Part shown: positions 1 to 23,590 of the stretch, one piece after another
Position numbering within the stretch: the stretch's first letter is position 1
Layout of the letters: each line of letters starts with the position of its first letter
Source: a virus
DNA length: 24,109 bases
Direction: 5' to 3' (one strand)
Virus record (IMG/VR): IMGVR_UViG_3300042380_000299
Coordinates: 1 to 24,109 of that record
The notes under the pieces: generated by a model
What the model was told of the DNA's origin: nothing
Seen by the model: only the letters and a program-made list of their open reading frames with translations
The model's database searches: none
Position numbers and translations under genes: made by a program

Positions 1-905
1 TTGCGACCTGTGCCTTCTACTATTACAACCCTCAGAGCCTAACAGAGAACAACCTCTACAATCGATACTGGAGGAGGACCATGGGGCAGATAAACAACGG
101 TAAGATGTTGACTGCTATGTTCAATCTAACTGAGAGCGACATCCAAAAGATGAAGCTCAATGATAAGATACGCATTGACAATTCATGGTGGAACATCAAC
201 AAGGTAATTGATTATGATGCCAATGCCAATGCATTGACTAAGGTAGAGCTCATCAGCATAGATACAGAGATTGACTTCATGCCATTCGTACCTGGATTTA
301 ACGAGCCTGGTATTGGACTGCCCAACGTTGGACCTATACAACAGGTAGGTAACAACACTGTCATCAAGCAGAAGAGTGCCTATGCTAACGTAACAGGTGA
401 GGGAGGTATGCAAGGTGATATCATTGGCAAGGGCAACGTAGTGCCTCCAGGCTTTAAGACCATGATAGTAGGCAACTGCTATGAGCAGACAACTAATGCA
501 CCATTCCTACCTACATCTGATGGTATTGTGGTGGACAACCTTGTGGTGCGTAACAGCTACAACGGTGTGCCTGTTGACAACACACCACTGAGATACACAG
601 CCAACCTAACACAGGCAGGTATAGCTGACCCTACCGCATACATCATGGAGGGTAGCTTCGGAAGTATCACATGGGTGAGGATAGCACAGGGGCAGTACTG
701 GGGATACCTTGACCAGTATGATCCACTGACTCCACTCACTGAGCTATCTGTTATGATTAGCAGTAACATCTTTGATGGGTTGATAACTGCACAATACCTA
801 CCTGCCAACCAGGTGATAGAGGTATTCACAACACAGATAGGTGTTGGTTTGGTAGACGGCTACCTCAATAGTACAACAATAATGATTTATTACTTCCCAC
901 AATAA
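1..905 (+). CDS. Distal/minor tail protein, 3' part (5' end outside window)
   Basis: The reading frame is open from the first complete codon at base 3, through an internal ATG at 81, to the TAA at 903-905. The visible part is therefore the C-terminal end of a longer gene and the ATG at 81 is probably not the real start. Residues around that ATG (NNLYNRYWRR, then LTESDIQKMKLNDKIRIDN and WWNINKVIDY) resemble the C-terminal part of long minor tail proteins in Bacteroidota phages, where a short beta-rich module follows a large baseplate-like region. The remainder is rich in Gly, Asn, Thr and Val with no membrane segment, as expected of a virion protein. It sits directly upstream of the tape measure gene and shares one base with it (TAATG). 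The tail assignment comes from context and family resemblance; the exact role is unknown. Confidence 0.6.
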   Translation, partial: ATCAFYYYNPQSLTENNLYNRYWRRTMGQINNGKMLTAMFNLTESDIQKMKLNDKIRIDNSWWNINKVIDYDANANALTKVELISIDTEIDFMPFVPGFNEPGIGLPNVGPIQQVGNNTVIKQKSAYANVTGEGGMQGDIIGKGNVVPPGFKTMIVGNCYEQTTNAPFLPTSDGIVVDNLVVRNSYNGVPVDNTPLRYTANLTQAGIADPTAYIMEGSFGSITWVRIAQGQYWGYLDQYDPLTPLTELSVMISSNIFDGLITAQYLPANQVIEVFTTQIGVGLVDGYLNSTTIMIYYFPQ

Positions 906-3163
906 TGAACACAGTAGAGATACCATTAAAAATCTCAGGACTCGCTGAGATTAAAGCAGAATTAAGAGCATTGAAGGGTGAGTTAGCTAATGCTACTGAT
1001 CCAAAAGAGATGGCTGAGTTAGCTCAAAGAGCAGGTGAGCTGAAGGATCAGATAGCTGATGCGAATGAGGCAGCCAATACTTTTGCTACTGGTTCTAAAT
1101 TTGAGCAGGTATCGAATGGATTAGGAGGGATTAAGGATAGTTTAATGAGCCTTGACTTTGCAGAGGCTAATCAAAAGGCCAAGGTATTCAGTGCAGCCCT
1201 TGGAAAAATAAACCCTGCTGAGATTAGTCAAGGGTTTAAATCTTTTACCGGAATGATTACCACCTTGGGCGGTGCTTTCATTAAGTTAGGTGCAACCATT
1301 CTCATGAACCCTATCTTTTTAATCGTGGCATTGATCACTGCCATTGTGGTAGGGATAGGACTGTTGTTAAAAAAGTTTGGCATTTTGGATGCTGTATTCA
1401 AGGCAATTATGGCACCTATCAATGCAATCATTCAAGCACTCAAAGATTTGGGTGACTGGTTAGGATTGACCAGCTTCGCTGAGGATGAGGCACATGAGGA
1501 GGAGATGGCAAGAGTTGAAGCTCAGAAAGAAGCACGTGCAGAGTTAGCTGCTGCAAGAGAAGCACAATTTAACGCAAGTCAAAAACAGTACGATAGGCAG
1601 ATAGCCTTAATGGATGCAGAGGGCAAAGATACCAAAGCATTGACTAAATTGAAAATTGAAGAGTCCATTCGATACATGACTCAAAAGAGAGAAGAACTTG
1701 CATTGGAAATTCAGGCTCAGGAGCAAATGGTAGAGAGGATAAAGTGGATGGGTAGCGTAAAAAAATCGGAACAATATAAACAACTACAAGAACAAAAAAA
1801 GCAACAGGTTGAATTAACCGAAGGGATATTAGATGCAGAAAACCAACTTAAATTAAATGAGATAAACAACGCTAAAAAAGCCTCGGATGCAGCAAAAGAG
1901 AACGCCAAGAAAGCCTCGGATGCAGCCAAGAAACGTGCAGAGGATGCAGCTAAGCGAGCAAAAGAGGAGCTTGAAAACCGTAGAAAGCTAAGAGACTTTG
2001 AGCTCTCTCAAATCAAAGACGATGCACAGCGTGAGGAGGCAATCACTCGTGAGAAATATGCACGGATGTTAACTGATTTGAAGGCTGATAAGACTAAGAG
2101 CAATGCTGAAAAATTACAATTTGAAAAGCTGTACGAACAACAGCTCAATGTTGAACTCAATAACCAGGCTGAAGCCAGGAGAAAAAAGGAGGAGGAGAAC
2201 ACGAAGAAAGCTAATGAGACTATCCTACAGCTACGCCTGGCATTGATGCCTGAAGGTGAGGCTAAGGAAAAAGCAATGCAAGATGATAAGTACCGTAAAC
2301 TGCGAGAGGCTGCCATTGCTGACACCACACTCACTGAGGAGAAGCGAAATGAGATCCTTGCATTATACGATGAGCAGAGAGCTCAGGAGGATAAGGCTAA
2401 AGAATTAGAGAAGCAGAAAGCCAAAGATGAATTTGCTAAGAAGTTTGCCTTAGAACAGATGACTCAAACAGACCAGGAGCTTGAGGCATTGAGGGTGAAG
2501 TATGAAGAGGAGCGTAAACTTGCAGAAGGTAACGCTGCTCTATTGCTTGAGCTTGAAAATAAATACACAGCCGACAGAAAAAAGATACTGGATGCTCAGG
2601 CATTGGCAGCCATTGAAGAGAAGACAAAGGAACGTGATGCCATCATTGGATTGACCAATGATATATTTGGCGGTGTGAGTAACATAGCCGGTATGATGAT
2701 CAAGGACCAGAAGAAACTTGAGAAGTTCAACAAGGCATCAGCGTTGATACAGATAGGTATTGATACAGCTAAGGCAATCAGTGCCCTGGTTGCAGCCTCT
2801 CAGGCTAACCCATTCAATGCAGCCACAGCAGGTACGGCAGGTGTTGCTCAGTTTGCGAGTGGTATCATTCAGATTGCTACCAACATAGCCAAGGCTAAGC
2901 AGATACTAACATCAGGAGGCACACCTTCAGCAGGTGGTGGAGGCGGTGCTTCAGGTGGTGGAGGTGGTGCTTCAGCATCCACTGCACAGGTAGTACCTCA
3001 AGCTGCTCAGCTATTCGGTCAAGGTAACACTGGCAATGTCTTCTCAGCAGGTGGCACATCCACTGAAAGCTCAGAGATCACATTGACAGCGGTGGTGAGT
3101 GAGACAGCCATGACATCCACACAGAATAAGATAAACAGAATTAACAAGAATGCAGAATTATGA
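905..3163 (+). CDS. Tail tape measure protein
   Basis: This 752-residue protein is the scaffold that sets tail length and is probably ejected with the DNA. Residues about 1-60 are helical. Residues about 115-180 form a long hydrophobic stretch (MNPIFLIVALITAIVVGIGL), as is usual in tape measures. Residues about 195-610 are an Ala/Lys/Glu-rich coiled coil with local KASDAAKE-type repeats near 325-345. A Gly/Ser-rich linker (GGGGGASGGGGGAS) follows near 680, and the C-terminus is short and polar. At the usual 0.15 nm per residue it would specify a tail of roughly 110 nm, suggesting a siphovirus-like particle. The ATG overlaps the previous stop by one base and the TGA overlaps the next ATG (ATGA), so translation is coupled. 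Confidence 0.85.
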   Translation: MNTVEIPLKISGLAEIKAELRALKGELANATDPKEMAELAQRAGELKDQIADANEAANTFATGSKFEQVSNGLGGIKDSLMSLDFAEANQKAKVFSAALGKINPAEISQGFKSFTGMITTLGGAFIKLGATILMNPIFLIVALITAIVVGIGLLLKKFGILDAVFKAIMAPINAIIQALKDLGDWLGLTSFAEDEAHEEEMARVEAQKEARAELAAAREAQFNASQKQYDRQIALMDAEGKDTKALTKLKIEESIRYMTQKREELALEIQAQEQMVERIKWMGSVKKSEQYKQLQEQKKQQVELTEGILDAENQLKLNEINNAKKASDAAKENAKKASDAAKKRAEDAAKRAKEELENRRKLRDFELSQIKDDAQREEAITREKYARMLTDLKADKTKSNAEKLQFEKLYEQQLNVELNNQAEARRKKEEENTKKANETILQLRLALMPEGEAKEKAMQDDKYRKLREAAIADTTLTEEKRNEILALYDEQRAQEDKAKELEKQKAKDEFAKKFALEQMTQTDQELEALRVKYEEERKLAEGNAALLLELENKYTADRKKILDAQALAAIEEKTKERDAIIGLTNDIFGGVSNIAGMMIKDQKKLEKFNKASALIQIGIDTAKAISALVAASQANPFNAATAGTAGVAQFASGIIQIATNIAKAKQILTSGGTPSAGGGGGASGGGGGASASTAQVVPQAAQLFGQGNTGNVFSAGGTSTESSEITLTAVVSETAMTSTQNKINRINKNAEL

Positions 3164-3597
3164 TAAGCCTACAATCCACCATCAATAAGATAATAGCCTT
3201 CTACAACTCTCACCTTCAGGTCAAGAAGGTGGGGTCTGACTTCAAGGAACAGATGACTAACTTCGCTACTAAGGATGAGAAGTATCCTATCGTTTTCATT
3301 GTGCCGGTATCAGTTAGCAATACTGAGAATACTAACATCTTCACCCTTGACATCTATTGCTTTGACATCATTCAAAAGGATAGGGCTAACATCATAACCA
3401 TCCTGAGTGATACGCATCAGATACTAATGGACCTGTACAATTATTTCACCTTCAGCAATGACCTCAGCATGGATGTATCAGGGATACCTTCATTCACTGC
3501 TCTGAACAATGATTTACTTGACTATGCGGCAGGGTACGTCATGACCATTACCTTGGAGGTAGATAACTGGACTGACTGCGACGTGCCACTACAATAA
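3160..3597 (+). CDS. Putative tail completion/terminator-like protein
   Basis: This 145-residue soluble alpha/beta protein starts in an ATGA overlap with the tape measure gene. It opens with an amphipathic helix (INKIIAFYNSHLQVKKVG), followed by a segment with KYPIVFIVPVS and beta strands (FTLDIYCFDII), then a helix (TILSDTHQILMDLYNYF), and ends DNWTDCDVPLQ. This pattern of a helix, a strand describing a value range, a D+ILSDTHQIL helix and a closing W-C-P recurs in small tail-completion proteins of Bacteroidota phages. I base the assignment on that recollection and on position. The head-tail joining role is inferred; the protein could be another small tail component. Confidence 0.45.
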   Translation: MISLQSTINKIIAFYNSHLQVKKVGSDFKEQMTNFATKDEKYPIVFIVPVSVSNTENTNIFTLDIYCFDIIQKDRANIITILSDTHQILMDLYNYFTFSNDLSMDVSGIPSFTALNNDLLDYAAGYVMTITLEVDNWTDCDVPLQ

Positions 3598-3614
3598 ACA
3601 TTTAGCTACGTTTC

Positions 3615-3626
3615 GACAATATAAGT
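3615..3626 (+). promoter_or_regulatory. Repeated ACAATATAAG motif before start (copy 1)
   Basis: GACAATATAAGT ends directly at the ATG at 3627. The same core occurs directly before the starts at 6077 and 23411, and as GACAATATA before 8592. The 5' flank ACATTTAGCTACG also resembles ACATTCTACG upstream of 8592. It may be a phage late promoter element or a translation-initiation enhancer. It does not match the host TAnnTTTG box. Confidence 0.35.
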
Positions 3627-4259
3627 ATGAGCATACCTAACTGGTGGGGTGATTGGAGGCAGGGGTTGACCCCTCACACTGGAGACCTACAGAGCACTGA
3701 CCTTATTGAATGTACACAGATAGTAGCAGGGCAACCTGTCAACACAGCTATCACGGGTCAGCAGATAATCAATGCAGCTTCAGGAGGTAGCAGTGATCCA
3801 AAAACTATTGGCAGTGCATATGGTACAGGTGTTACAGGACTTACTAATGCTGTAAGTGCAACTGTATTGATACCTGCCAACACTATTGTTACAACGAATA
3901 CAATATATATCAAGGCATTCATTGACAGAACTTTGGTAAGTGGTGCAGGTTCAACAGCATTTAGATTTTACACCAATACCACCAACAGCTTAACAGGTGC
4001 TACACTTCTTGGGTCAGGTGGTTCAATGGCTACTACCGTAAGGTTCCAACGATTTGAAAGGAACATATATGTGGATATTAATAACATGAACTGCTTTGCT
4101 ACAGGTACAAGTGCATCTAATGACTACACTATCAGTGCCATTAGCTTAATACCATTCAACAAGACCGTAGATAATTACCTCATCTTTACCGTTCAGCATT
4201 CATCCTCAGCCACTGATATAGCAGCATGGAAAAGAGTAATAGTACAAAAGTATGCATAG
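3627..4259 (+). CDS. Virion surface/fibre-like beta-rich protein
   Basis: This 210-residue protein is rich in Thr, Ser, Ala, Gly and Asn, with a Trp-rich N-terminus (IPNWWGDWRQG). It has short repeated beta-strand patterns and no signal peptide or coiled coil. An N-terminal piece with LQSTDLIECTQIVAGQPV followed by ITGQQIINAA resembles attachment segments of head or tail fibre proteins in Bacteroidota phages. The C-terminal half (IYVDINNMNCF, YLIFTVQHSSSATDIAAWKRVIV) looks like a jelly-roll or decoration fold. A decoration, fibre or adhesin role is inferred from composition and from its place among tail genes. It is preceded by a 29-base gap carrying the ACAATATAAG motif, so it may start its own transcript. 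Confidence 0.45.
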   Translation: MSIPNWWGDWRQGLTPHTGDLQSTDLIECTQIVAGQPVNTAITGQQIINAASGGSSDPKTIGSAYGTGVTGLTNAVSATVLIPANTIVTTNTIYIKAFIDRTLVSGAGSTAFRFYTNTTNSLTGATLLGSGGSMATTVRFQRFERNIYVDINNMNCFATGTSASNDYTISAISLIPFNKTVDNYLIFTVQHSSSATDIAAWKRVIVQKYA

Positions 4260-4389
4260 CGTAACAGTCAACGATATTACCTACACCTTCACCGAATGGG
4301 AGGAGGTTGATGAGATATACATTCATATATTCACCACTGAGGGTACCACCGTATGTATCCCAAAAGACTTGTTAGATGGCACGATATAA
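4252..4389 (+). CDS. Small acidic hypothetical protein (45 aa)
   Basis: The short frame runs from ATG 4252, inside the end of the preceding gene (8-base overlap), to TAA at 4387-4389, inside the start of the next (14-base overlap). The product is acidic and beta-prone, with TEWEEVDEIYIHIF and VCIPKDLLDG. Tight overlaps at both ends and the absence of any other coding explanation for this stretch support a real gene. I do not recognise the family; position suggests a small virion or assembly component. Confidence 0.6.
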   Translation: MHSVTVNDITYTFTEWEEVDEIYIHIFTTEGTTVCIPKDLLDGTI

Positions 4390-4828
4390 AAAGGATGGCA
4401 ATTTCTACGTCAAGTATCCTACCAGGAGAAAGATGGCAGCAATACTCAAGCGAATAATCATGAGCAAAGGGCTCTACCAGGAGGGCACATTGGTTGACTC
4501 TGTGCGTATCAATGCAAGAGTAACAGGCTTCGCTAAGCTTGAGATAGATATCATTGCCATGTATTACTTTATATTCCTAAACAATGGAGCCTATCTGTGG
4601 AATGGTGGGGTGATACCTCCATATGATATTGTGAGTGCATTCCAGGATGAGATGGTTAACCAGGGAATAACCACAGAGATATATTCTCAGTACACTGAAT
4701 GGATAACTCAAAACTACCCAATGGTGGAAGCTATTGAGGTCTTAGAAAAGGATCAGAAAATAGTATACAACTTCATACCGGTTGATCCTCCTGCAGGCTT
4801 CACTGTTGGTAGCCCATTAGATGTCTAA
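4376..4828 (+). CDS. Putative HK97 gp10-like neck/tail-joining protein
   Basis: This 150-residue protein has a basic N-terminus (MARYKKDGNFYVKYPTRRK), then a helix with KRIIMSKGLYQEGTLVDSVR. The beta segment ARVTGFAKLEIDIIAMYYFI continues into FLNNGAYLWNGG. The order helix, GLY-x-TGxLxDSI-like turn, beta strands and a YYxFLNNGA motif is reminiscent of the HK97 gp10/neck family that joins head and tail. Similarity is weak and the call is tentative. Its 3' end overlaps the convergent minus-strand gene by 12 bases. Confidence 0.35.
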   Translation: MARYKKDGNFYVKYPTRRKMAAILKRIIMSKGLYQEGTLVDSVRINARVTGFAKLEIDIIAMYYFIFLNNGAYLWNGGVIPPYDIVSAFQDEMVNQGITTEIYSQYTEWITQNYPMVEAIEVLEKDQKIVYNFIPVDPPAGFTVGSPLDV

Positions 4829-5551
4829 CTCTTTTTTCATTCCGAGCATATTGAAAACATAGTAAAGGGGTAGCCCTCCTATGGCATCGGACTTGGATAG
4901 GTCACCATTGCACAGGTTATATATCAACAGCTCCCATGACCACTTGGATGTATCCTTCTCAGGCTCAGTATCAGGGTCATCATCATCATCATCATAGCCT
5001 TCAGCAGGTTCAGGTGGTAGTGGGTCCTCGAATAGGTTGGTATATGTGCTAAGAAACTGCTCTCTAAATTTCAGAAATTCTTTGATCACACCATACACAT
5101 CTGTGACAGGTACATCCATTAGCCTCTCAGCTCTGAGCTTGCAGTCATATTCATAGGGCTCCCATACTACCTCACCCCATTCATTCTCTTTGGTTTGCCG
5201 GTACAGGATAGCACATATGTAGGGTAGGTTAATTAGGTAGTTATCGTTAAAGAAATAGTTAAGGTCAATGTATTCGTAAAGGGTGAGCTTATTGAGAGGC
5301 TTGAATATCATGCCCTCAACCTCACGCCTCCATTGACTGGATGGTTCAGCAGTGGCCCACTTGCATTGATTAATCATTTCACTGAGCTCTTCAATGTCAA
5401 GCTCATCAACATCCACATCAGTTAAGATGTAAAGGATCTCACTATTGTAGTGAATAGATCCCTGCTCTTTATCAATTTTCGCTATCTCCGTCCACTGCTC
5501 CAGTGTTACCTCCCTCCAGCTTTGGGGTAGCTTGTGCTCTGATTTTTTCAC
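4817..5551 (-). CDS. Tail assembly chaperone-like protein, downstream paralogue
   Basis: This 244-residue protein reads on the minus strand from GTG 5551. Its N-terminal segment (WREVTLEQWTEIAKI), the acidic DVDVDELDIEELSEMI block and the KLTLYEYIDL/INLPYICAILYRQ block mirror the upstream minus-strand protein (LTVEQFEKLTDF; NDVDVENFIDII; YISNILAVFFKRQ), so the two are probable paralogues. Such soluble proteins next to tape measure genes usually serve as tail assembly chaperones, which coat the tape measure before tube polymerisation. A run of six Asp and further acidic residues lies near 190-205. The GTG lies 80 bases inside the upstream gene, in the +1 (equivalently -2) frame, with no Shine-Dalgarno. 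It could be made by coupled initiation, by frameshifting at the A6 tract, or both. Confidence 0.5.
   Translation of the reverse strand: MKKSEHKLPQSWREVTLEQWTEIAKIDKEQGSIHYNSEILYILTDVDVDELDIEELSEMINQCKWATAEPSSQWRREVEGMIFKPLNKLTLYEYIDLNYFFNDNYLINLPYICAILYRQTKENEWGEVVWEPYEYDCKLRAERLMDVPVTDVYGVIKEFLKFREQFLSTYTNLFEDPLPPEPAEGYDDDDDDPDTEPEKDTSKWSWELLIYNLCNGDLSKSDAIGGLPLYYVFNMLGMKKELDI
4977..4995. repeat. (TCA)6 microsatellite encoding poly-Asp
   Basis: Six TCA repeats plus one T. On the minus strand they encode a run of six Asp residues in the downstream chaperone-like gene. Such a tract can expand or contract by whole codons without breaking the frame. Confidence 0.9.
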
Positions 5552-6035
5552 TTATAAAAGATATGTAAGGAATGCATATAGATGCAGGTAATTTTGCTAA
5601 GAATTTACTCTTGTGTTTAATATGAGCATCGGTATAGTGCTCAACAGGTCCAAGATCCTGACGTTTAAAGAACACTGCCAGGATATTACTGATATATCCC
5701 TTTTCTTTTCCGATGCTGTACTTCTCAATGAGCTTACTATCACGCACTGTCATCTTCATCTCAGCCTTATAGGTGTATCCTTCATGCTCTAAGGTATCAA
5801 CGGTGGGGTAGGTCATGTTGGGGTGCTCATTGAATTGACGAATAATATCAATAAAGTTTTCAACATCCACATCATTGAACTCATTTTCAGGTATCCCAAG
5901 GTATTCAAATATCTTCAGGTGCCTTTCAATCGGGTCAAGTGTTGTATCACTGTTAAAATCAGTTAGCTTTTCAAATTGCTCAACTGTGAGCTCAGTAATT
6001 AGGTTGGGAATTTCCCTGTCAAGTATTTTAATCAT
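5472..6035 (-). CDS. Tail assembly chaperone-like protein, upstream paralogue
   Basis: This minus-strand gene codes for 187 residues from ATG 6035 (MIKILDREIPNLITELTVEQ). The frame stays open upstream to 6092, but that extension would overlap the divergent gene at 6077 and the TATATTTG box, so 6035 is preferred. The order of motifs matches the following paralogue: LTVEQFEKL helix, FEYLGIPENEFNDVDVENFI, a GYTYKAEMKM strand, YISNILAVFF, and a C-terminal helix with acidic tail. Gene size, lack of membrane segments and position between tape measure and head genes fit a tail assembly chaperone. Only this pair in the structural block is on the minus strand, which is odd because it must be transcribed against its neighbours. 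Confidence 0.5.
   Translation of the reverse strand: MIKILDREIPNLITELTVEQFEKLTDFNSDTTLDPIERHLKIFEYLGIPENEFNDVDVENFIDIIRQFNEHPNMTYPTVDTLEHEGYTYKAEMKMTVRDSKLIEKYSIGKEKGYISNILAVFFKRQDLGPVEHYTDAHIKHKSKFLAKLPASICIPYISFISEKIRAQATPKLEGGNTGAVDGDSEN
5543..5548 (-). promoter_or_regulatory. A6 tract, candidate +1/-2 frameshift site
   Basis: On the minus strand the upstream gene reads AGT GAA AAA ATC. A tRNA-Lys on AAA can re-pair with AAA after slipping +1 or -2, which would enter the frame of the downstream gene exactly where its GTG AAA AAA TCA begins. The predicted fusion would be about 405 residues. Tail chaperone genes in many phages use programmed frameshifts; here the slip is inferred only from sequence. 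Confidence 0.3.
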
Positions 6036-6049
6036 ATGCAAATTTTGAA

Positions 6050-6057
6050 CAAATATA
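6050..6057 (-). promoter_or_regulatory. Minus-strand promoter, TATATTTG -7 box
   Basis: The 41-base gap between the divergent starts at 6035 (-) and 6077 (+) contains a perfect Bacteroidota -7 box, TATATTTG, on the minus strand, 14 bases before the minus-strand ATG. A good -33 TTTG at 19-21 bases is not visible, because a T-run occupies part of the spacer. It would drive the two chaperone-like genes. Confidence 0.45.
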
Positions 6058-6076: not shown

Positions 6077-7027
6077 GTGACCGAGTTACCAATTTACACC
6101 ATTACCATTGATCCCGAGTATGCAGAGGGTGGTGAGGACTTAGGCATTGAGGCTATTGCCTTCACATCTAAGCCTGCCATTAAAGTAAAAGGGATGGCCT
6201 TCAATCAACAGACTAAAGCATTGGCTTTCAAAGATGGATTGAAGTACCGTATCACTGCACCTGCCATGATACCTATGGAGATTTATCGAAGGGATGACGA
6301 AACAGATGAGGAGTACATGGTTAAATTCACGGTTGAGGAGATAGATGCCATGCATTCTAAGTTCATGCAGCAGTTAGTTAACTCTGCTAAGTTCAACCTT
6401 GAGCACAACGAAGAGAAAAAAGTACCTGCCTACATTCTGGAGGCATGGTTAGTAGATAAGCCCGAGCTTGACAAAGCATATACTACCTATGGCATTGAGG
6501 TGCCTGCAGGTACGTTGATGCTAACAGCTCAGATAACTGATATTGAATACTACAATAAACTGGTTGAAGAGGACCAGGTTGGTTTCTCTATTGAGGGCTT
6601 CATGGGAATGAAACTAAAATCGAAATATAATATGCAATCACCTGATGGAGAGCACCTCATTGAGGGCAAAATCTACGTGGTCAAGGATGGCCAAGTAGTC
6701 GAAATTAAAGAAGAGGAAAAAGTCGAAGAGACAATGCCGGAGGAAGAAGTAGCAATGGCTGAGACAGTAGTTGAGGAGGAGGAAGTGGTTGAGGAAGAAA
6801 CTATGGCTGTTGATCCTGCTATGGATGCTGAGGCTGTCCTTGCAATTGTTCAGCCTATGATTGCTGAGCAAATCAATTCAGTGTTAGCTATAGTAGCTGA
6901 GCTCAAAAGTCAATTAGAGGAGGCTCTTGGAGCTGAGACTGAAGTGGAAGAGGAGACTGTTGCCATTGATGCTAAGACTATGCTTGCTGAAAATCTAAGA
7001 AAGTTTAACCAATTTAATTCTAAATAA
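6077..7027 (+). CDS. XkdF-like prohead protease with acidic scaffold-like tail
   Basis: This 316-residue protein reads from GTG 6077. Residues about 1-180 resemble the XkdF-type putative phage serine protease: SKPAIKVKGMAF near 31-42, a FNLEHN segment with His110, AWLVDKPE, YGIEVPAGTLMLTAQI, and QVGFSIEGF with Ser171. His110 and Ser171 are candidate catalytic residues. Residues about 205-245 are an extremely Glu/Val-rich stretch, and residues 250-315 are helical (AVLAIVQPMIAEQINSVLAIVAELKSQLEEAL), as in scaffolding domains. A protease fused to its scaffold directly upstream of the major capsid gene (1-base gap) is a common capsid-assembly arrangement. The start is inferred from the family-like PIYTITIDP opening and the lack of an in-frame ATG before the conserved region. 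Confidence 0.7.
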   Translation: MTELPIYTITIDPEYAEGGEDLGIEAIAFTSKPAIKVKGMAFNQQTKALAFKDGLKYRITAPAMIPMEIYRRDDETDEEYMVKFTVEEIDAMHSKFMQQLVNSAKFNLEHNEEKKVPAYILEAWLVDKPELDKAYTTYGIEVPAGTLMLTAQITDIEYYNKLVEEDQVGFSIEGFMGMKLKSKYNMQSPDGEHLIEGKIYVVKDGQVVEIKEEEKVEETMPEEEVAMAETVVEEEEVVEEETMAVDPAMDAEAVLAIVQPMIAEQINSVLAIVAELKSQLEEALGAETEVEEETVAIDAKTMLAENLRKFNQFNSK

Positions 7028-7028
7028 A

Positions 7029-7961
7029 ATGCGTAAATTAAAATTCGACCTACAAGTCGACCCAACAGCTTTATTGGCTGCAAACCCTGAGGCATTCTAC
7101 TCCGCTGCCTACTTAACGTCGGATGTACCTAACAACTTCCGTACTTTGCCTGGTGTTAAATACCAGACTAAACTTGGAACTGTAGTATTCGGTAACGTTT
7201 TACAAAGCTCCACTTGTGCATGGCCAACTCCAGGCTCAACTGATGACTTGAGTGCAGTGTTGATTGACGTTTGTGCTGTATCTGCTATGGCTCAAATCTG
7301 TCAATTTGATTTGGAGCAGTCATTCGTATCCTTGCAAATGACTAAAGGATCTAACAGCGATTTCTCTGTTGCATCTTTCATGAATTTTTACTGGGAAACT
7401 ATGGCTAAGACTGTAGCTCAAGACATCGAAAGCATCCGTTGGCAAGGTGATACAACTTCATTGAACCCTACACTTGCATTGTGTGATGGTTATGAGAAAA
7501 AGTTGACTGCTGCTGTAGGACCTGGTGGGGTTATCAACGGTGGTACTGGTACTATCAGTAACTTCACTGCTCTTGAGACTGCTATCTCTACTGCATTCGC
7601 TGCATTGCCTGCATCTGTAGCTTCCAAGACTGAGGACCTACGCATCTACCTTCCTACTCAATTGGTAAACATATACCGATTAGGAGTAGCTTCAGGTAAC
7701 ACCAATGCATACATCACTCAAGATTTGTCTTTGACTTACTTAGGTATCAAAATCGTTCAGTGCCAAGGGATGTCTAATAACACCTTTGTTATCACGTTGA
7801 AAGATAACCTTATCTATGCATTCGATGCTGAAGGAGATAGCTCTGATTTGCGTGCGGTTAACCTACGTGACACTGTTGCTGAGCCTTACATCCGTACTCG
7901 TGCGGACATGAAGATTGGCTTCCACTTTGTGAACCCTACTGAAATCGTTTTCTATTCTTAA
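7029..7961 (+). CDS. Major capsid protein
   Basis: This 310-residue protein lies immediately after the protease/scaffold gene and is followed by a strong terminator hairpin. It has features of HK97-fold capsid proteins: an N-terminal arm, a segment with ICQFDLEQSFVSLQMTKGSNSDF, a long helix with SFMNFYWETMAKTVAQDIESI (spine-like), LRIYLPTQLVNIYRL, and a C-terminal strand pair (DMKIGFHFVNPTEIVFY). Its codons shift toward a few preferred forms (GCT, ACT, TCT, GTT) compared with neighbours, consistent with very high expression. The assignment rests on position, size and codon bias more than on residue-level homology. Confidence 0.75.
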   Translation: MRKLKFDLQVDPTALLAANPEAFYSAAYLTSDVPNNFRTLPGVKYQTKLGTVVFGNVLQSSTCAWPTPGSTDDLSAVLIDVCAVSAMAQICQFDLEQSFVSLQMTKGSNSDFSVASFMNFYWETMAKTVAQDIESIRWQGDTTSLNPTLALCDGYEKKLTAAVGPGGVINGGTGTISNFTALETAISTAFAALPASVASKTEDLRIYLPTQLVNIYRLGVASGNTNAYITQDLSLTYLGIKIVQCQGMSNNTFVITLKDNLIYAFDAEGDSSDLRAVNLRDTVAEPYIRTRADMKIGFHFVNPTEIVFYS

Positions 7962-7971
7962 TAATAATCTT

Positions 7972-7996
7972 GAGCCCTCTGCAAAGGGGGCTCTTT
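7972..7996 (+). terminator. Rho-independent terminator after the capsid gene
   Basis: An 8-bp stem (GAGCCCTC / GGGGGCTC, one G-U pair) closes a TGCAAA loop and is followed by TTT. It lies 10 bases after the capsid stop. It may attenuate transcription so that capsid mRNA exceeds the downstream genes. Confidence 0.75.
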
Positions 7997-8010
7997 AATA
8001 CTCTTTAATC

Positions 8011-8553
8011 ATGCCAAATGTTTGTCAAGCATTAGAAGCGGTTGCCAAGAGCTGTGAGAATAACTCAGGCGGCTTGCATGGGATAGCCTTAATCCCACAG
8101 GATGATGTAACGGGTGTAACAGTTAACACCACTAACCCTGGTGATTGGGAGGTGACAGGTTTTACCTTGACTCCACTTATTACTTTTACTGACTATTACA
8201 TCCGTAGAAATACATCCAACTACACTGAGGAATTAGCTGCTGACCTTGTAAATGGTAGCTCATTCGTTACTCAGACTATTAACTTAATGTTCCACCGTCG
8301 TGAGATGGCTACTTCAAGAGCTATCAAAATCTTAGGTTCAGGACAGCAGTATCTATCTGCCATCGTAAAAGATGCCAACGGTAAGTATTGGTACTTCCCT
8401 TACTTGCAGTTATCTGCTTCAGGTGAAGGTTCCGGCCAGGCCCGTGCAGATGGTAGTAAGTACAGCGTTACACTGATTGCGGAGAATGAGTTCTTAGCTT
8501 ATGAGGTAGTAATGACACCTACTGCTCTTCAAAATATCGGGGTGAACTTCTAA
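8011..8553 (+). CDS. Putative major tail (tube) protein
   Basis: This 180-residue protein follows the capsid terminator. It begins with a Cys-containing PNVCQALEAVAKSCENNSGGL and continues as beta strands. The patterns GDWEVTGFTLTPLITFTDYYI, GSSFVTQTINLMFHRREM, AIVKDANGKYWYFPYL, and SGQARADGSKYSVTLIAENEF resemble tail tube/major tail proteins of Bacteroidota phages, including the NG-S-F-x-Q strand and a KDxNGKYWY loop. In capsid-first gene orders the tube gene usually comes later, so the position next to the capsid is unusual. A head decoration role cannot be excluded. Confidence 0.45.
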   Translation: MPNVCQALEAVAKSCENNSGGLHGIALIPQDDVTGVTVNTTNPGDWEVTGFTLTPLITFTDYYIRRNTSNYTEELAADLVNGSSFVTQTINLMFHRREMATSRAIKILGSGQQYLSAIVKDANGKYWYFPYLQLSASGEGSGQARADGSKYSVTLIAENEFLAYEVVMTPTALQNIGVNF

Positions 8554-8577
8554 TTTTGAACATTCTACGATAGGTCT

Positions 8578-8591
8578 GACAATATACTTAG
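8578..8591 (+). promoter_or_regulatory. GACAATATA motif before start (variant copy)
   Basis: GACAATATACTTAG precedes ATG 8592. Upstream, ACATTCTACG matches the ACATTTAGCTACG found before the first copy at 3615, giving a two-part similarity with variable spacing. Confidence 0.3.
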
Positions 8592-8945
8592 ATGATCTAC
8601 GTAGCTCAAAATTCAAGTAACAAAATAGTTCTCACACTTACAGAGGTAACAACGGTGACAAACCCGAGTTACCTCTTTGTGTTTACAAACGAATTTGATA
8701 CGAACACAGGCACGCAGATACTATTCACTGCTGCCGATACCTCATCCTATCCTGAGCGGTACAATTTATTTAATTTAGTAGAGCCCACTGACCTCAGCCT
8801 TGTAGTTGGTCAATACACCTATGAGATATATGAGAAGAGTGGACCATTCACCCTGCCGTTAAGCATTGCACAGACCACAGGTGTAGTCATTGAGGAGGGT
8901 AGGATGGTAGTTAGTGGACCTGCACCTTCATCAGTTTATACCTAA
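8592..8945 (+). CDS. Small beta-rich virion-associated protein
   Basis: This 117-residue protein starts IYVAQNSSNKIVLTLTEV, continues with alternating beta strands (YLFVFTNEFDTNTGTQILF, GQYTYEIYEKSG), and ends MVVSGPAPSSVYT. It is all-beta and Ig-like in composition, and resembles small hypothetical structural proteins between capsid and portal in Bacteroidota phages. It has no signal peptide or membrane span. Only 3 bases separate it from the portal start. A virion role is inferred from context; the specific function is unknown. Confidence 0.4.
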   Translation: MIYVAQNSSNKIVLTLTEVTTVTNPSYLFVFTNEFDTNTGTQILFTAADTSSYPERYNLFNLVEPTDLSLVVGQYTYEIYEKSGPFTLPLSIAQTTGVVIEEGRMVVSGPAPSSVYT

Positions 8946-8948
8946 CAC

Positions 8949-10244
8949 ATGGCTTGGTACGATATATTTAGTAGAAAACAAGAGCAGGGACCTACCGTCG
9001 TGGAAGGATACCAGGCTTTTAGCACCCCATTCCTACCTGTTGGTAGAGGTAACTTGACACTACCCTACGTCAATGGTAGATGGACTGCAGGTAACTGGGT
9101 TGACTTTGGAGAGGGCAACCTTTATCCGGAGGTGCTCAATCAAATGTACTTCAGTTCACCACTGCACGGTGCTATTGTTGACTTCAAAACCAATGCAGTT
9201 ATCGGTGGTGGCTATGCCTTAGATGCTGAGAAACTAACAGCACAGGAGAAGGTGGACCTTTACACATGGGAGCGTAAGATAAAACTCAAGCATACCGTTG
9301 AGGCGGTTACTCAGCAGTTGATATTGCATAATAGGATCTATTTTAAGCTGGTATTTAATGAGAAAGGTAAGCTCGTTAAGGTGTACAATGTAAGCCCTGA
9401 GAAAGTAAGGGTATCACGATGCAAAAAAAAGTACTATCTAAGCAATGACTGGAGCCAACGGTTGGATGTTGTAGAGATAAAACCCTACCACATGACCTGC
9501 AAAGATGAAGTTCAGCTCTATTGCTATGAGGTGCATTCTGTTGGGCAGGACTACTATCCGCTACCTCAGTATACATCGGCTTTGAATTTTGCATATCTCT
9601 CGGGTGAGCTGTCATACTTCGCTAAGAGTAACATTCAAAACAGCATTTTTCCTTCCTTTGCTATGATGTTCCCTAAGCGACCACAATCGGAGGAGGAGAA
9701 GCACATGATTAAGGAGACTATTGACAGGTTGAAAGGTGCACAGAACGCAGGTAAAGCGGTTGCATTCTTTGCCAATAGCCAAGATCAGTTACCAAAAATA
9801 GAAGCCCTACCAACCAACGCAAATGATAAGTTATTTCACGAGGCATCTGCCCTCAATACTGAGCAGATTTGCTTTGCTCACACTATCGACCCTATTCTTA
9901 TGGGTGTTAGAACCACAGGCTCCTTGGGTAGTGGCTCGGATATTAAGCAGGCTTATGTGATATTTGAGAAAAACGTAGTCAAAAAGATACGTGCACAGGT
10001 AGAGACCATCTTCAATGAGCTCCTTGGCATTGCTAAGCTGCCTGCTGAATTTACTATCAATAACTACCAAATCATTGGTGATACCATTGTTGAGGTAGAT
10101 GATGATACTACCCGGGTAAAAGAGGCATTGAACACCTTGAGTGAGCCATTACTTAACAAGGTGCTTGAAAAAATGACTACCAATGAGATACGAGCATTGG
10201 CTCAACTCCCTCCTATTGACGAACCAACTAACACAGCTCAGTAA
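8949..10244 (+). CDS. Portal protein
   Basis: This 431-residue protein would form the dodecameric DNA gate at the capsid vertex. Portal-like blocks are in order: LYPEVLNQMYFSSPLHGAIVDFKTNAVIGGGY (about 56-88), a helical wing, VYNVSPEKVRV, a clip/stem region with SNIQNSIFPSFAMMF, and DIKQAYVIFEKNVVKKIRAQVETIFNELL, which matches the long stem helix and helix alpha-5. The C-terminus has EALNTLSEPLLNKVLEKMTTNEIRALAQLPP, a typical portal tail. Length is on the short side for portals. It is encoded downstream of the capsid gene instead of upstream, which is atypical. TAATG coupling joins it to the next gene. Confidence 0.8.
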   Translation: MAWYDIFSRKQEQGPTVVEGYQAFSTPFLPVGRGNLTLPYVNGRWTAGNWVDFGEGNLYPEVLNQMYFSSPLHGAIVDFKTNAVIGGGYALDAEKLTAQEKVDLYTWERKIKLKHTVEAVTQQLILHNRIYFKLVFNEKGKLVKVYNVSPEKVRVSRCKKKYYLSNDWSQRLDVVEIKPYHMTCKDEVQLYCYEVHSVGQDYYPLPQYTSALNFAYLSGELSYFAKSNIQNSIFPSFAMMFPKRPQSEEEKHMIKETIDRLKGAQNAGKAVAFFANSQDQLPKIEALPTNANDKLFHEASALNTEQICFAHTIDPILMGVRTTGSLGSGSDIKQAYVIFEKNVVKKIRAQVETIFNELLGIAKLPAEFTINNYQIIGDTIVEVDDDTTRVKEALNTLSEPLLNKVLEKMTTNEIRALAQLPPIDEPTNTAQ

Positions 10245-10810
10245 TGCTTTACTTCATAACTGAAAACTACCTCAAGACCAACACACCCATCACAGCCAAC
10301 GTGGATGTAACGGATGTGACCCCATACATCGCTACGCAGTCAGCTCTCAGGATTCAGCCTATCCTTGGCACTACATTCTACAACCATCTACTGGCTGCAT
10401 ACAATGCACAGACCTTGACCAATGATGAGATAAACCTGGTTGAGTTTATTCAGCCGGTCATTGCATGGAGGTCAGCAGAGGATGCTGTATTTGGATTGAG
10501 CTATCAGCTTAAGAACAAAGGACTTCAGACTCAGAATGGTGACTACTCAGCAAGCGTATCACGAGGTGAGGTAGCCTTTGGAATGGAGCACTATGCTCAG
10601 AAGGCATCATTCTTTGAGCAGAGGCTAATACGTTGGCTATTGGCTAACAAAAATCTATTTCCTATATTCATATCAGCACTCAATACAGATACTGACCTAC
10701 GTCCTATGTTCGCAACGTGCCAGTGCATCACTCCTTGGCAGTTGACTTGCACAGGAATGTGTGGTAACTTCCGTGAAAATGGGTACAATAACAGCATATT
10801 GATCCTGTGA
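10244..10810 (+). CDS. Head-tail connector-like protein (DUF6712-like)
   Basis: This 188-residue protein starts MLYFITENYLKTNTPITANVDVTDVTPYIATQSALRI, followed by LGTTFYNHLLAAYNAQTLTNDEINLVEFIQPVIAW. This is the helical pattern of DUF6712-like/gp6-type connector adaptors that bind under the portal. The C-terminus is unusual: four Cys residues within about 15 residues (CQCITPWQLTC, then C), then a short polar tail. It is coupled to the portal (TAATG) and to the holin (GTGA). Assignment rests on motif pattern plus adjacency to the portal. Confidence 0.55.
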   Translation: MLYFITENYLKTNTPITANVDVTDVTPYIATQSALRIQPILGTTFYNHLLAAYNAQTLTNDEINLVEFIQPVIAWRSAEDAVFGLSYQLKNKGLQTQNGDYSASVSRGEVAFGMEHYAQKASFFEQRLIRWLLANKNLFPIFISALNTDTDLRPMFATCQCITPWQLTCTGMCGNFRENGYNNSILIL

Positions 10811-14496: not shown

Positions 14497-15225
14497 ATGA
14501 TGAATATACAAGAAACTTTATTTGAAACACCAAACCAGCAATTGCTTATACACGATGTTATGTGTAGTTGCAGTTTTACAGACGAAAGCCCAAAAGTTCT
14601 TTTTTTTGTGCGTGAGGTTGATTATAAAACAGCTACTAAAATAGTAGTTGAAAACCATTACCTGCATAGACAAGCACCATGCTCAAAAGCATATGGACTG
14701 TTTTGTAAGCAATGTAATAATATTATCGGTGTTGTAATGTATGGTGTAAGTTGCAGTAGCACATTGCTAAAAGGAATTTGTGGCAAAGAAGAACAAAGCA
14801 ACGTTTATGAATTGACAAGGCTTTGGATAAAAGACGGAACGCCAAAGAACACTGAAAGTTTTTTAATTGGCAATACATTAAAGTTGTTGGATAAAGAGAT
14901 AATAGTTTCTTTTGCAGAGATACGGCAAGGACATAACGGAACAGTTTACCAAGCCACAAATTTCCTTTATTGTGGGCTGAGTGTTAAATTTAAAGACCCT
15001 AAAGTAAAAGGATTGGAACACCAACACCACGCAACTTACGCCAATAGAATGACAATGCAGGAGGTAAGGGATAAATATGGAGATGAAAACGTTTACTATG
15101 TTGAAAGACCGAGAAAACACCGATATATTTATTTTAATGCGAAGGGAAAAAGAAAAAAAGAACTTTTGGGAAAATTGAAATACGAAATTTTACCTTACCC
15201 AAAAACTTCATTAGTAGCAGAATGA
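14497..15225 (+). CDS. Mom-like adenine modification protein (GNAT-type)
   Basis: This 242-residue protein resembles the phage Mu Mom family, which modifies adenines in phage DNA and so blocks many host restriction enzymes. Matching blocks: NHYLHR at 53-58, YGLFCKQCNNIIGVVMYG at 66-83, ELTRLWIKDGTPKNTESFLI at 105-124, VSFAEIRQGHNGTVYQATNF at 137-156 with LY at 157-158, and KHRYIYF at 207-213. These correspond to the conserved arginine/tryptophan loop, the QG-H-GTxYQAxxxxY cofactor region and the C-terminal basic motif of the family. The gene is richer in A+T than neighbouring replication genes, suggesting separate acquisition. No Com-like regulator is visible. The start could be the second ATG (14500). 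Confidence 0.7.
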   Translation: MMNIQETLFETPNQQLLIHDVMCSCSFTDESPKVLFFVREVDYKTATKIVVENHYLHRQAPCSKAYGLFCKQCNNIIGVVMYGVSCSSTLLKGICGKEEQSNVYELTRLWIKDGTPKNTESFLIGNTLKLLDKEIIVSFAEIRQGHNGTVYQATNFLYCGLSVKFKDPKVKGLEHQHHATYANRMTMQEVRDKYGDENVYYVERPRKHRYIYFNAKGKRKKELLGKLKYEILPYPKTSLVAE

Positions 15226-23421: not shown

Positions 23422-23590
23422 CCAATTCATTGCCTCATGCTGTAGCCTGTTAGGCATCTTTACAGGCATTTCACTGCTATTTCACAACTATGATATAGCA
23501 TCTTATACTGCAGGAGGGTGGATAATTGGATACTATACGTTTTTTATCACATCTGAATATGAGCAAAAAGAAGATAACACCGAAAATTAA
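23411..23590 (+). CDS. Small two-span membrane protein (59 aa)
   Basis: ATG 23411 (MTISQFIASCCSLLGIFTGI) overlaps the sigma-like stop by 11 bases; GTG 23393 in the same frame is a poorer start. Two hydrophobic spans (FIASCCSLLGIFTGISLLF; YTAGGWIIGYYTFFI) are followed by an acidic tail (EYEQKEDNTEN). It has a holin-like layout but lies far from the lysis cassette. No family recognised. Confidence 0.45.
   Translation: MTISQFIASCCSLLGIFTGISLLFHNYDIASYTAGGWIIGYYTFFITSEYEQKEDNTEN

Follow-up and report, generated by a model that had tools for sequence, protein, structure and literature searches.

Two overlapping genes, P1 and P2, on the minus strand of a virus record of 24,109 bases (the window, by which we mean the entire stretch) most probably encode the short G-type and the long GT-type tail assembly chaperones of the phage as two separate products (Table 1). 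The first-pass annotation had described the two open reading frames, their 80-nt overlap and the codons at which the frames diverge, and all of this is correct on re-reading of the sequence. P2 is in the +1 (equivalently -2) frame relative to P1, with GTG AAA AAA TCA where P1 has AGT GAA AAA ATC, and its frame can be said to open at the GTG because a TAA is found immediately 5´ of this codon.

Table 1. Position of the P1 and P2 genes, their sequence elements and their neighbors in the window
Feature	Position	Strand	Remarks
P1, putative short G-type tail assembly chaperone paralog	5472..6035	-	187 aa, ATG start
P2, putative long GT-type tail assembly chaperone, single reading frame	4817..5551	-	244 aa, GTG start
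P1/P2 overlap, 80 nt	5472..5551	-	contains A6 (5543-5548), coding E-K-I of P1
EFLKFR, P2 residues 158-163	5063..5080	-	counterpart in the alignment of FFLSFR, the -1 slip site of relatives; the window lacks a slippery heptamer at this place
P2 predicted T-type C-terminal domain, residues 203-244 (KWSWE...LGMKKELDI)	4820..4945	-	after an acidic low-confidence linker
Convergent neighbor	4376..4828	+	150 aa
Divergent neighbor, head maturation protease-like (Peptidase_S78_2)	6077..7027	+	PF14550 E 1.3e-6
TATATTTG, Bacteroidota -7 promoter box (TAnnTTTG)	6050..6057	-	22 nt upstream of P1 ATG

Relatives were drawn from three IMG/VR lists (the best 80 of 99 from the first, all 11 from the second and the best 80 of at least 577 from the third), together with two genome records, and several of the relative loci share one contig. 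Removal of identical protein pairs reduced 83 P1-P2 pairs to 61 distinct ones, and removal of identical DNA left 93 distinct junctions in addition to 4 loci with P1 only. The paralogy of the two proteins, claimed in the first-pass annotation, escapes a direct BLASTP comparison of P1 with P2 (best E 0.23) and is borne out by comparison of profiles from 61-row alignments (probability 92.3, E 5.5e-7). Gap-trimmed profiles scored 46.4 against each other, a value that shuffled controls failed to reach (100 column-shuffles, at most 25.7), and 13 other gene families from the same loci scored no higher than 18.8 against either profile. The predicted structures are in line with paralogy in that they match mostly the same viral models in BFVD: at E <= 1e-3, Foldseek recovered 30 models with P2, 25 of which are also among the 34 matched by P1. 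The P1 model is good except for the last 17 residues (pLDDT 87.7) and that of P2 is moderate (pLDDT 77.7), with the acidic linker at residues 177-201 falling below 50. Outside the overlap, dN/dS indicates purifying selection on both genes (0.05-0.16 for P1 and 0.08-0.21 for P2; six pairwise comparisons, dS saturated in some). Sites are few within the overlap, where constraint is weak on the P1 frame (dN/dS 0.28-1.54) and stronger on the P2 frame (0.08-0.70). Compared with its upstream part, the P1 frame has a reduced dS in the overlap in 6/6 comparisons.

Direct searches of protein families and folds say little about the pair. Nothing exceeded the curated Pfam cut-offs for P1 and P2 of the window and 61 relatives of P2, and searches of PHROGs with 61 members of each protein gave a best E of 3.8e-4, at which level only families of unknown function are found. 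A sequence search of the PDB with both profiles returned nothing below E 0.5, and tblastn of both proteins against the phage collection gave no match. Among PDB folds, the top three rows for the P1 model include 3klu (YqbN; Z 3.4), which we take to be TAC-like, and 2ob9 (HK97 TAC; Z 2.9), matches that are weak and closely followed by unrelated rows; no row reached Z 2 with the P2 model. Among the 50 BFVD rows listed for P1, four carry the name tail assembly chaperone, with E values (0.07-0.33) too weak for use. R9VW65 of Flavobacterium phage 6H, another BFVD match, was set aside because the similarity is too weak (TM-scores 0.34); a 191-aa gene of this phage (10352-10927, identified by length) is located upstream of its tape measure gene.

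A more informative relative is found in Nonlabens (Persicivirga) phage P12024S. The models of P1 and P2 both match its protein I6R9M9, which we assign by length (175 aa) to gene 38 of JQ823122, and gene 38 is the best ORF of JQ823122 for the P2 profile (E 0.019). From 63 related IMG/VR loci we obtained 47 distinct proteins longer than 140 aa which, with P12024S_38, make up the P38 set; by a crude measure it consists of 11 full-length clusters below ~80% identity and one fragment (L225). The P38 family scored 86.4 against P2 (probability 97.7; maximum of 60 shuffles 21.8) and 43.4 against P1 (probability 85.9; maximum of 60 shuffles 22.6), and this homology of the G domain supports the tail-chaperone-like nature that both proteins had been given in the first-pass annotation.

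The P38 family appears to use programmed frameshifting. T_TTT_TTT is present in the -1 register in 48/48 distinct P38-type sequences, and thus in every cluster and in the fragment, where the chance of finding it is about 0.07 per sequence, given Phe-Phe. The heptamer lies in the codons of FFYHLGNDL, which is invariant across 11 aligned representatives, and the -1 frame downstream of it codes for a KWGWY-type domain that in P12024S is annotated separately as gene 39. RNA folding downstream of the T7 gave no signal in 11 sequences of these relatives (mononucleotide z -1.1 to +1.2). The slip site and the T frame at -1 together point to the layout of a G/GT tail assembly chaperone, encoded in P12024S-type relatives by a single gene co-oriented with its neighbors. 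Frameshifting is thereby relevant in the wider family, as the first-pass annotation had held. P12024S genes 38 and 39 (JQ823122 23136-23830; L161), annotated as two hypothetical proteins, have T_TTT_TTT at 23579-23585; their sequence suggests one -1 frameshifted G/GT gene, and we propose that they be re-annotated as such.

The sequence of P2 corresponds to the frameshifted product of this family. A conceptual GT profile was made by joining at the heptamer the 44 P38-type sequences whose T tail was 70 residues or longer. It aligns with P2 from end to end (224 columns, probability 99.5, E 3.1e-23), and the alignment of the unshifted G profile with P2 comprises 149 columns and stops at column 155, about the slip site. 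The T tail by itself matches the C-terminal part of P2 (probability 97.7, score 67.7; 100 shuffles <=18.5) and gave no match to that of P1 (probability 6.5). When the tail of 11 representatives was read in three frames, the -1 frame matched the C-terminal part of P2 with a probability of 97.9, against 0.5 for each of the others. At the junction, P2 has the motif [ED]FL[KQ]FR, a pattern found in 42/61 listed P2 sequences, where GT has FFLSFR. P2 thus matches shifted GT end to end, T domain included, and is therefore GT-like; by sequence comparison it corresponds to the long form.

P1, by the same comparisons, has a G domain and no detectable T domain. It scores almost equally against the G and GT profiles (43.3 and 43.8, with 153 and 80 aligned columns, respectively) and was not matched by the unshifted G tail of 11 representatives, so its designation as the short form rests on the G domain and the absent T. 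We regard this working assignment as the weaker half of our claim. A short and a long form with the T domain in the long one only are accordingly found in P1 and P2, as known here from the genes. It is unlikely that P1 is instead a paralog of different function, e.g. a regulator, leaving P2 as the only chaperone with both G and GT activity. Such a division would agree with the much closer relation of P2 than of P1 to the G/GT family (scores 86 vs 43) and with the dissimilarity between P1 and the unshifted G tail. However, wherever the contig of a fetched locus extends over both genes, P1 and P2 are found together, in order and with an overlap; the 4 P1-only loci end within or just past P1, and 32 columns of P1 are invariant across 61 listed sequences.

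Further chaperone copies were sought in 19 near-full-length relatives (27.8-31 kb, completeness not certified) and in the record behind L088. The P2 profile found one site in each of the 20 records, the G profile matched the P2 gene alone in 7/19 relatives, and a search for the slip motif that tolerated as many as 2 mismatches detected it in P12024S and in 0/19 relatives. The P2-profile search missed P1 itself in the 20 records; a further diverged copy is thus conceivable, and the P1/P2 family may have an additional chaperone gene of this kind.

The position of the pair is unusual. A G/GT gene is usually part of the structural operon, on the same strand and upstream of the tape measure gene, although this placement is not strictly defining. 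P1 and P2 depart from it in being inverted within the structural operon, as an island flanked by the gene at 4376-4828 and that of the protease. Among 156 listed loci, some of them on the same contig, the convergent neighbor precedes P2 in 149, with no window gene beyond P2 in the other 7, and the protease gene follows P1 in 154, with no window gene beyond P1 in the other 2. The order of genes on the plus strand (905-4828 and 6077-10810) also looks unusual, with the tape measure-like gene (905-3163) and neck-like genes ahead of those for the protease, a capsid-like protein, a putative tail tube protein (8011-8553) and the portal (some names given by inspection); from protease to portal the order resembles that of P12024S. 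The opposite strand is one observation that would suit a duplicated tail-related protein with some other role, for instance as a baseplate or neck assembly factor, in spite of the G/GT homology, and the weak PDB fold matches, the acidic linker of P2 and the divergence of P1 would suit it as well. We consider such a role improbable, since P2 matches the conceptual GT over its full length, T domain included, and no other G/GT-like gene was detected in the 19 near-full-length relatives, within the limited sensitivity of that search.

The inverted pair has a promoter box of its own. TAnnTTTG is found at -20 to -25 from the P1 ATG in 70/70 distinct listed upstream regions (2 loci were skipped), compared to 6.6% of mononucleotide shuffles. 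Over the entire window, the motif shows no enrichment (27 occurrences vs 21.8 expected). For Bacteroidetes, TTTG/TAnnTTTG has been deduced as the consensus of promoters (PMC6847099). Inspection by eye of the region upstream of P1 (6036-6076 in the window) and its equivalents revealed, in many of the relatives printed, a further block resembling TATATT(A/G) slightly upstream of the TATATTTG box, and this block may be part of the promoter. From P12024S, the promoter box and the Pfam matches to DUF3127 and BT4734-like, we infer that the host is a species of Bacteroidota. Elsewhere in the window, a Mom-like protein is encoded at 14497-15225 on the plus strand (Pfam Mom E 2.3e-43), which suggests DNA base modification in the phage.

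At the junction of the two genes, the data fit an overlapping gene with a start codon of its own. An in-frame P2 start codon within the overlap, picked by script near the expected place, is present in 92/93 distinct junctions listed (73 ATG, 14 GTG and 5 TTG), and the length of the overlap ranges from 23 to 80 nt. In L006, L021, L022 and L023, the in-frame stop is farther upstream and the GTG (ATG in L023) is retained. In the remaining junction (L142), a stop in the P2 frame shortly precedes the conserved start of the protein and no start codon is found in the scanned range, possibly due to a sequencing error or a broken gene. In 93/93 distinct junctions, the frame of P2 is +1 to that of P1; this constancy is predicted by descent because the P1 stop falls inside P2 codons, and taken alone it leaves room for an occasional shift. 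The A6 run is present in 17/61 distinct listed pairs (14/18 of the closest and 3/43 others) and absent from the close relatives L009 (GAA AAG ATT) and L021, L022 and L023 (A5). Most pairs thus keep both proteins yet lack the run, which is an outcome that the first-pass annotation had itself named as refuting its frameshift. The Lys at the A6 site is invariant (61/61 listed pairs) and encoded by AAG in 31/61. As such, A6 is unremarkable in the window, with 60 matches vs 24.9 expected from shuffles. At other places in P1 and P2, canonical heptamers occur in register sporadically; P1 of the window has CCCAAAG at codon 169, and P2 of the window has none. A slip at the P1 stop of relatives (e.g. 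GAG_TGA, GCT_TGA) was considered and rejected, as no cognate re-pairing was seen by eye on the printed junctions.

A +1 or -2 shift of ribosomes at the A6 near the end of P1, producing the duplicated-domain P1-P2 fusion of ~405 residues that the first-pass annotation had envisaged, is highly improbable and we reject it: re-pairing would be possible on the A6 of the window, most of the closest pairs share the run and P2 is always in the +1 frame, but the run is lost in close relatives and from most pairs, the in-frame starts and variable overlap point elsewhere, A6 is common throughout the window, the next codon (ATC) is by inspection not a stop and not one at which stalling would be obvious, and P2 alone already matches the GT product with its G and T domains.

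Several known systems are comparable to separate G and GT genes. In lambda, the ratio of G to GT is crucial for tail assembly, and the frameshift that generates it is widely conserved among long-tailed phages (PMC5009743). P1 and P2 resemble the lambda-type system in having a short G form and a long G-plus-T form, and the homologous single-gene family has a T frame at -1 with an X_XXY_YYZ-type heptamer. Unlike the lambda type, the window family has two genes with their own starts, no conserved slippery site and a location on the opposite strand. Its long form does not come from a programmed frameshift as far as the genes tell, and probably no frameshifting takes place in vivo. Some T4-like phages are described as encoding a short TAC and a long fusion form in separate genes, without frameshift (PMC10885494, PRFect, citing Vladimirov, Gautam and Davidson 2022, Virology). 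We liken these to P1 and P2 by gene layout alone; they belong to another phage group, and P1 and P2 differ in that their genes overlap and are inverted behind a promoter box of their own, and in that a family homologous to them still has a frameshift site. In Microbacterium phages of Cluster EA, there are subclusters with two TAC ORFs that are apparently expressed separately and, as in P1/P2, have no evident frameshift between them (PMC7302621). A G domain in their downstream ORF is not mentioned, whereas P2 has one.

The closest comparison is with P12024S itself. Genes 38/39 share homologous G and T domains with the P1/P2 family, and the phage shares part of its backbone with the window (portal similarity; phrog_11320 and phrog_19091, capsid and 180-aa gene). 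In contrast to the window, P12024S has a single G gene, which contains T_TTT_TTT, has its T in the -1 frame and runs in the same direction as the terminase and structural genes. Given the T4-like and Cluster EA precedents, the two-gene strategy is therefore known in kind. In the literature searched, we noticed no published account of such a two-gene chaperone beyond the T4-like precedent, which is no proof of absence. As far as our searches show, what is new is the lineage, the overlapping and inverted layout with its own promoter box, and the existence of a homologous lineage that keeps the slip site.

The following course of events would account for these observations. A single gene of the homologous family appears to give rise to both forms via a -1 frameshift on T_TTT_TTT, and the wide conservation of the frameshift among phages suggests that a frameshifted gene is the ancestral state. 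In the window family, the gene would have been duplicated, with P1 retaining the G domain alone and P2 carrying the shifted G-to-T junction hard-wired in one frame. A single mRNA, transcribed from the TATATTTG promoter on the opposite strand to that of the structural operon, would carry both genes; ribosomes would initiate separately on P1 and on P2, for the latter at a start codon inside the P1 gene, and the P1:P2 ratio would presumably be set at the overlap. The chaperone function of both proteins is likely from homology. If the two proteins act as their lambda counterparts do, their G domains would cover the tape measure protein, with the T domain of P2 bringing in subunits of the tail tube.

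In conclusion, we lean toward the view that, in a widespread lineage of long-tailed phages, the frameshift was replaced by duplication, the pair moved to an inverted unit of its own and the G:GT ratio came to be set by initiation in the overlap. A function is hereby proposed for genes that have no convincing Pfam or PHROG family of known function. If the proposal is true, homologous lineages show this T domain in the frameshifted as well as in the hard-wired state. A two-gene lineage beside one with a slip site would make it testable whether the frameshift itself is needed, or the ratio alone.
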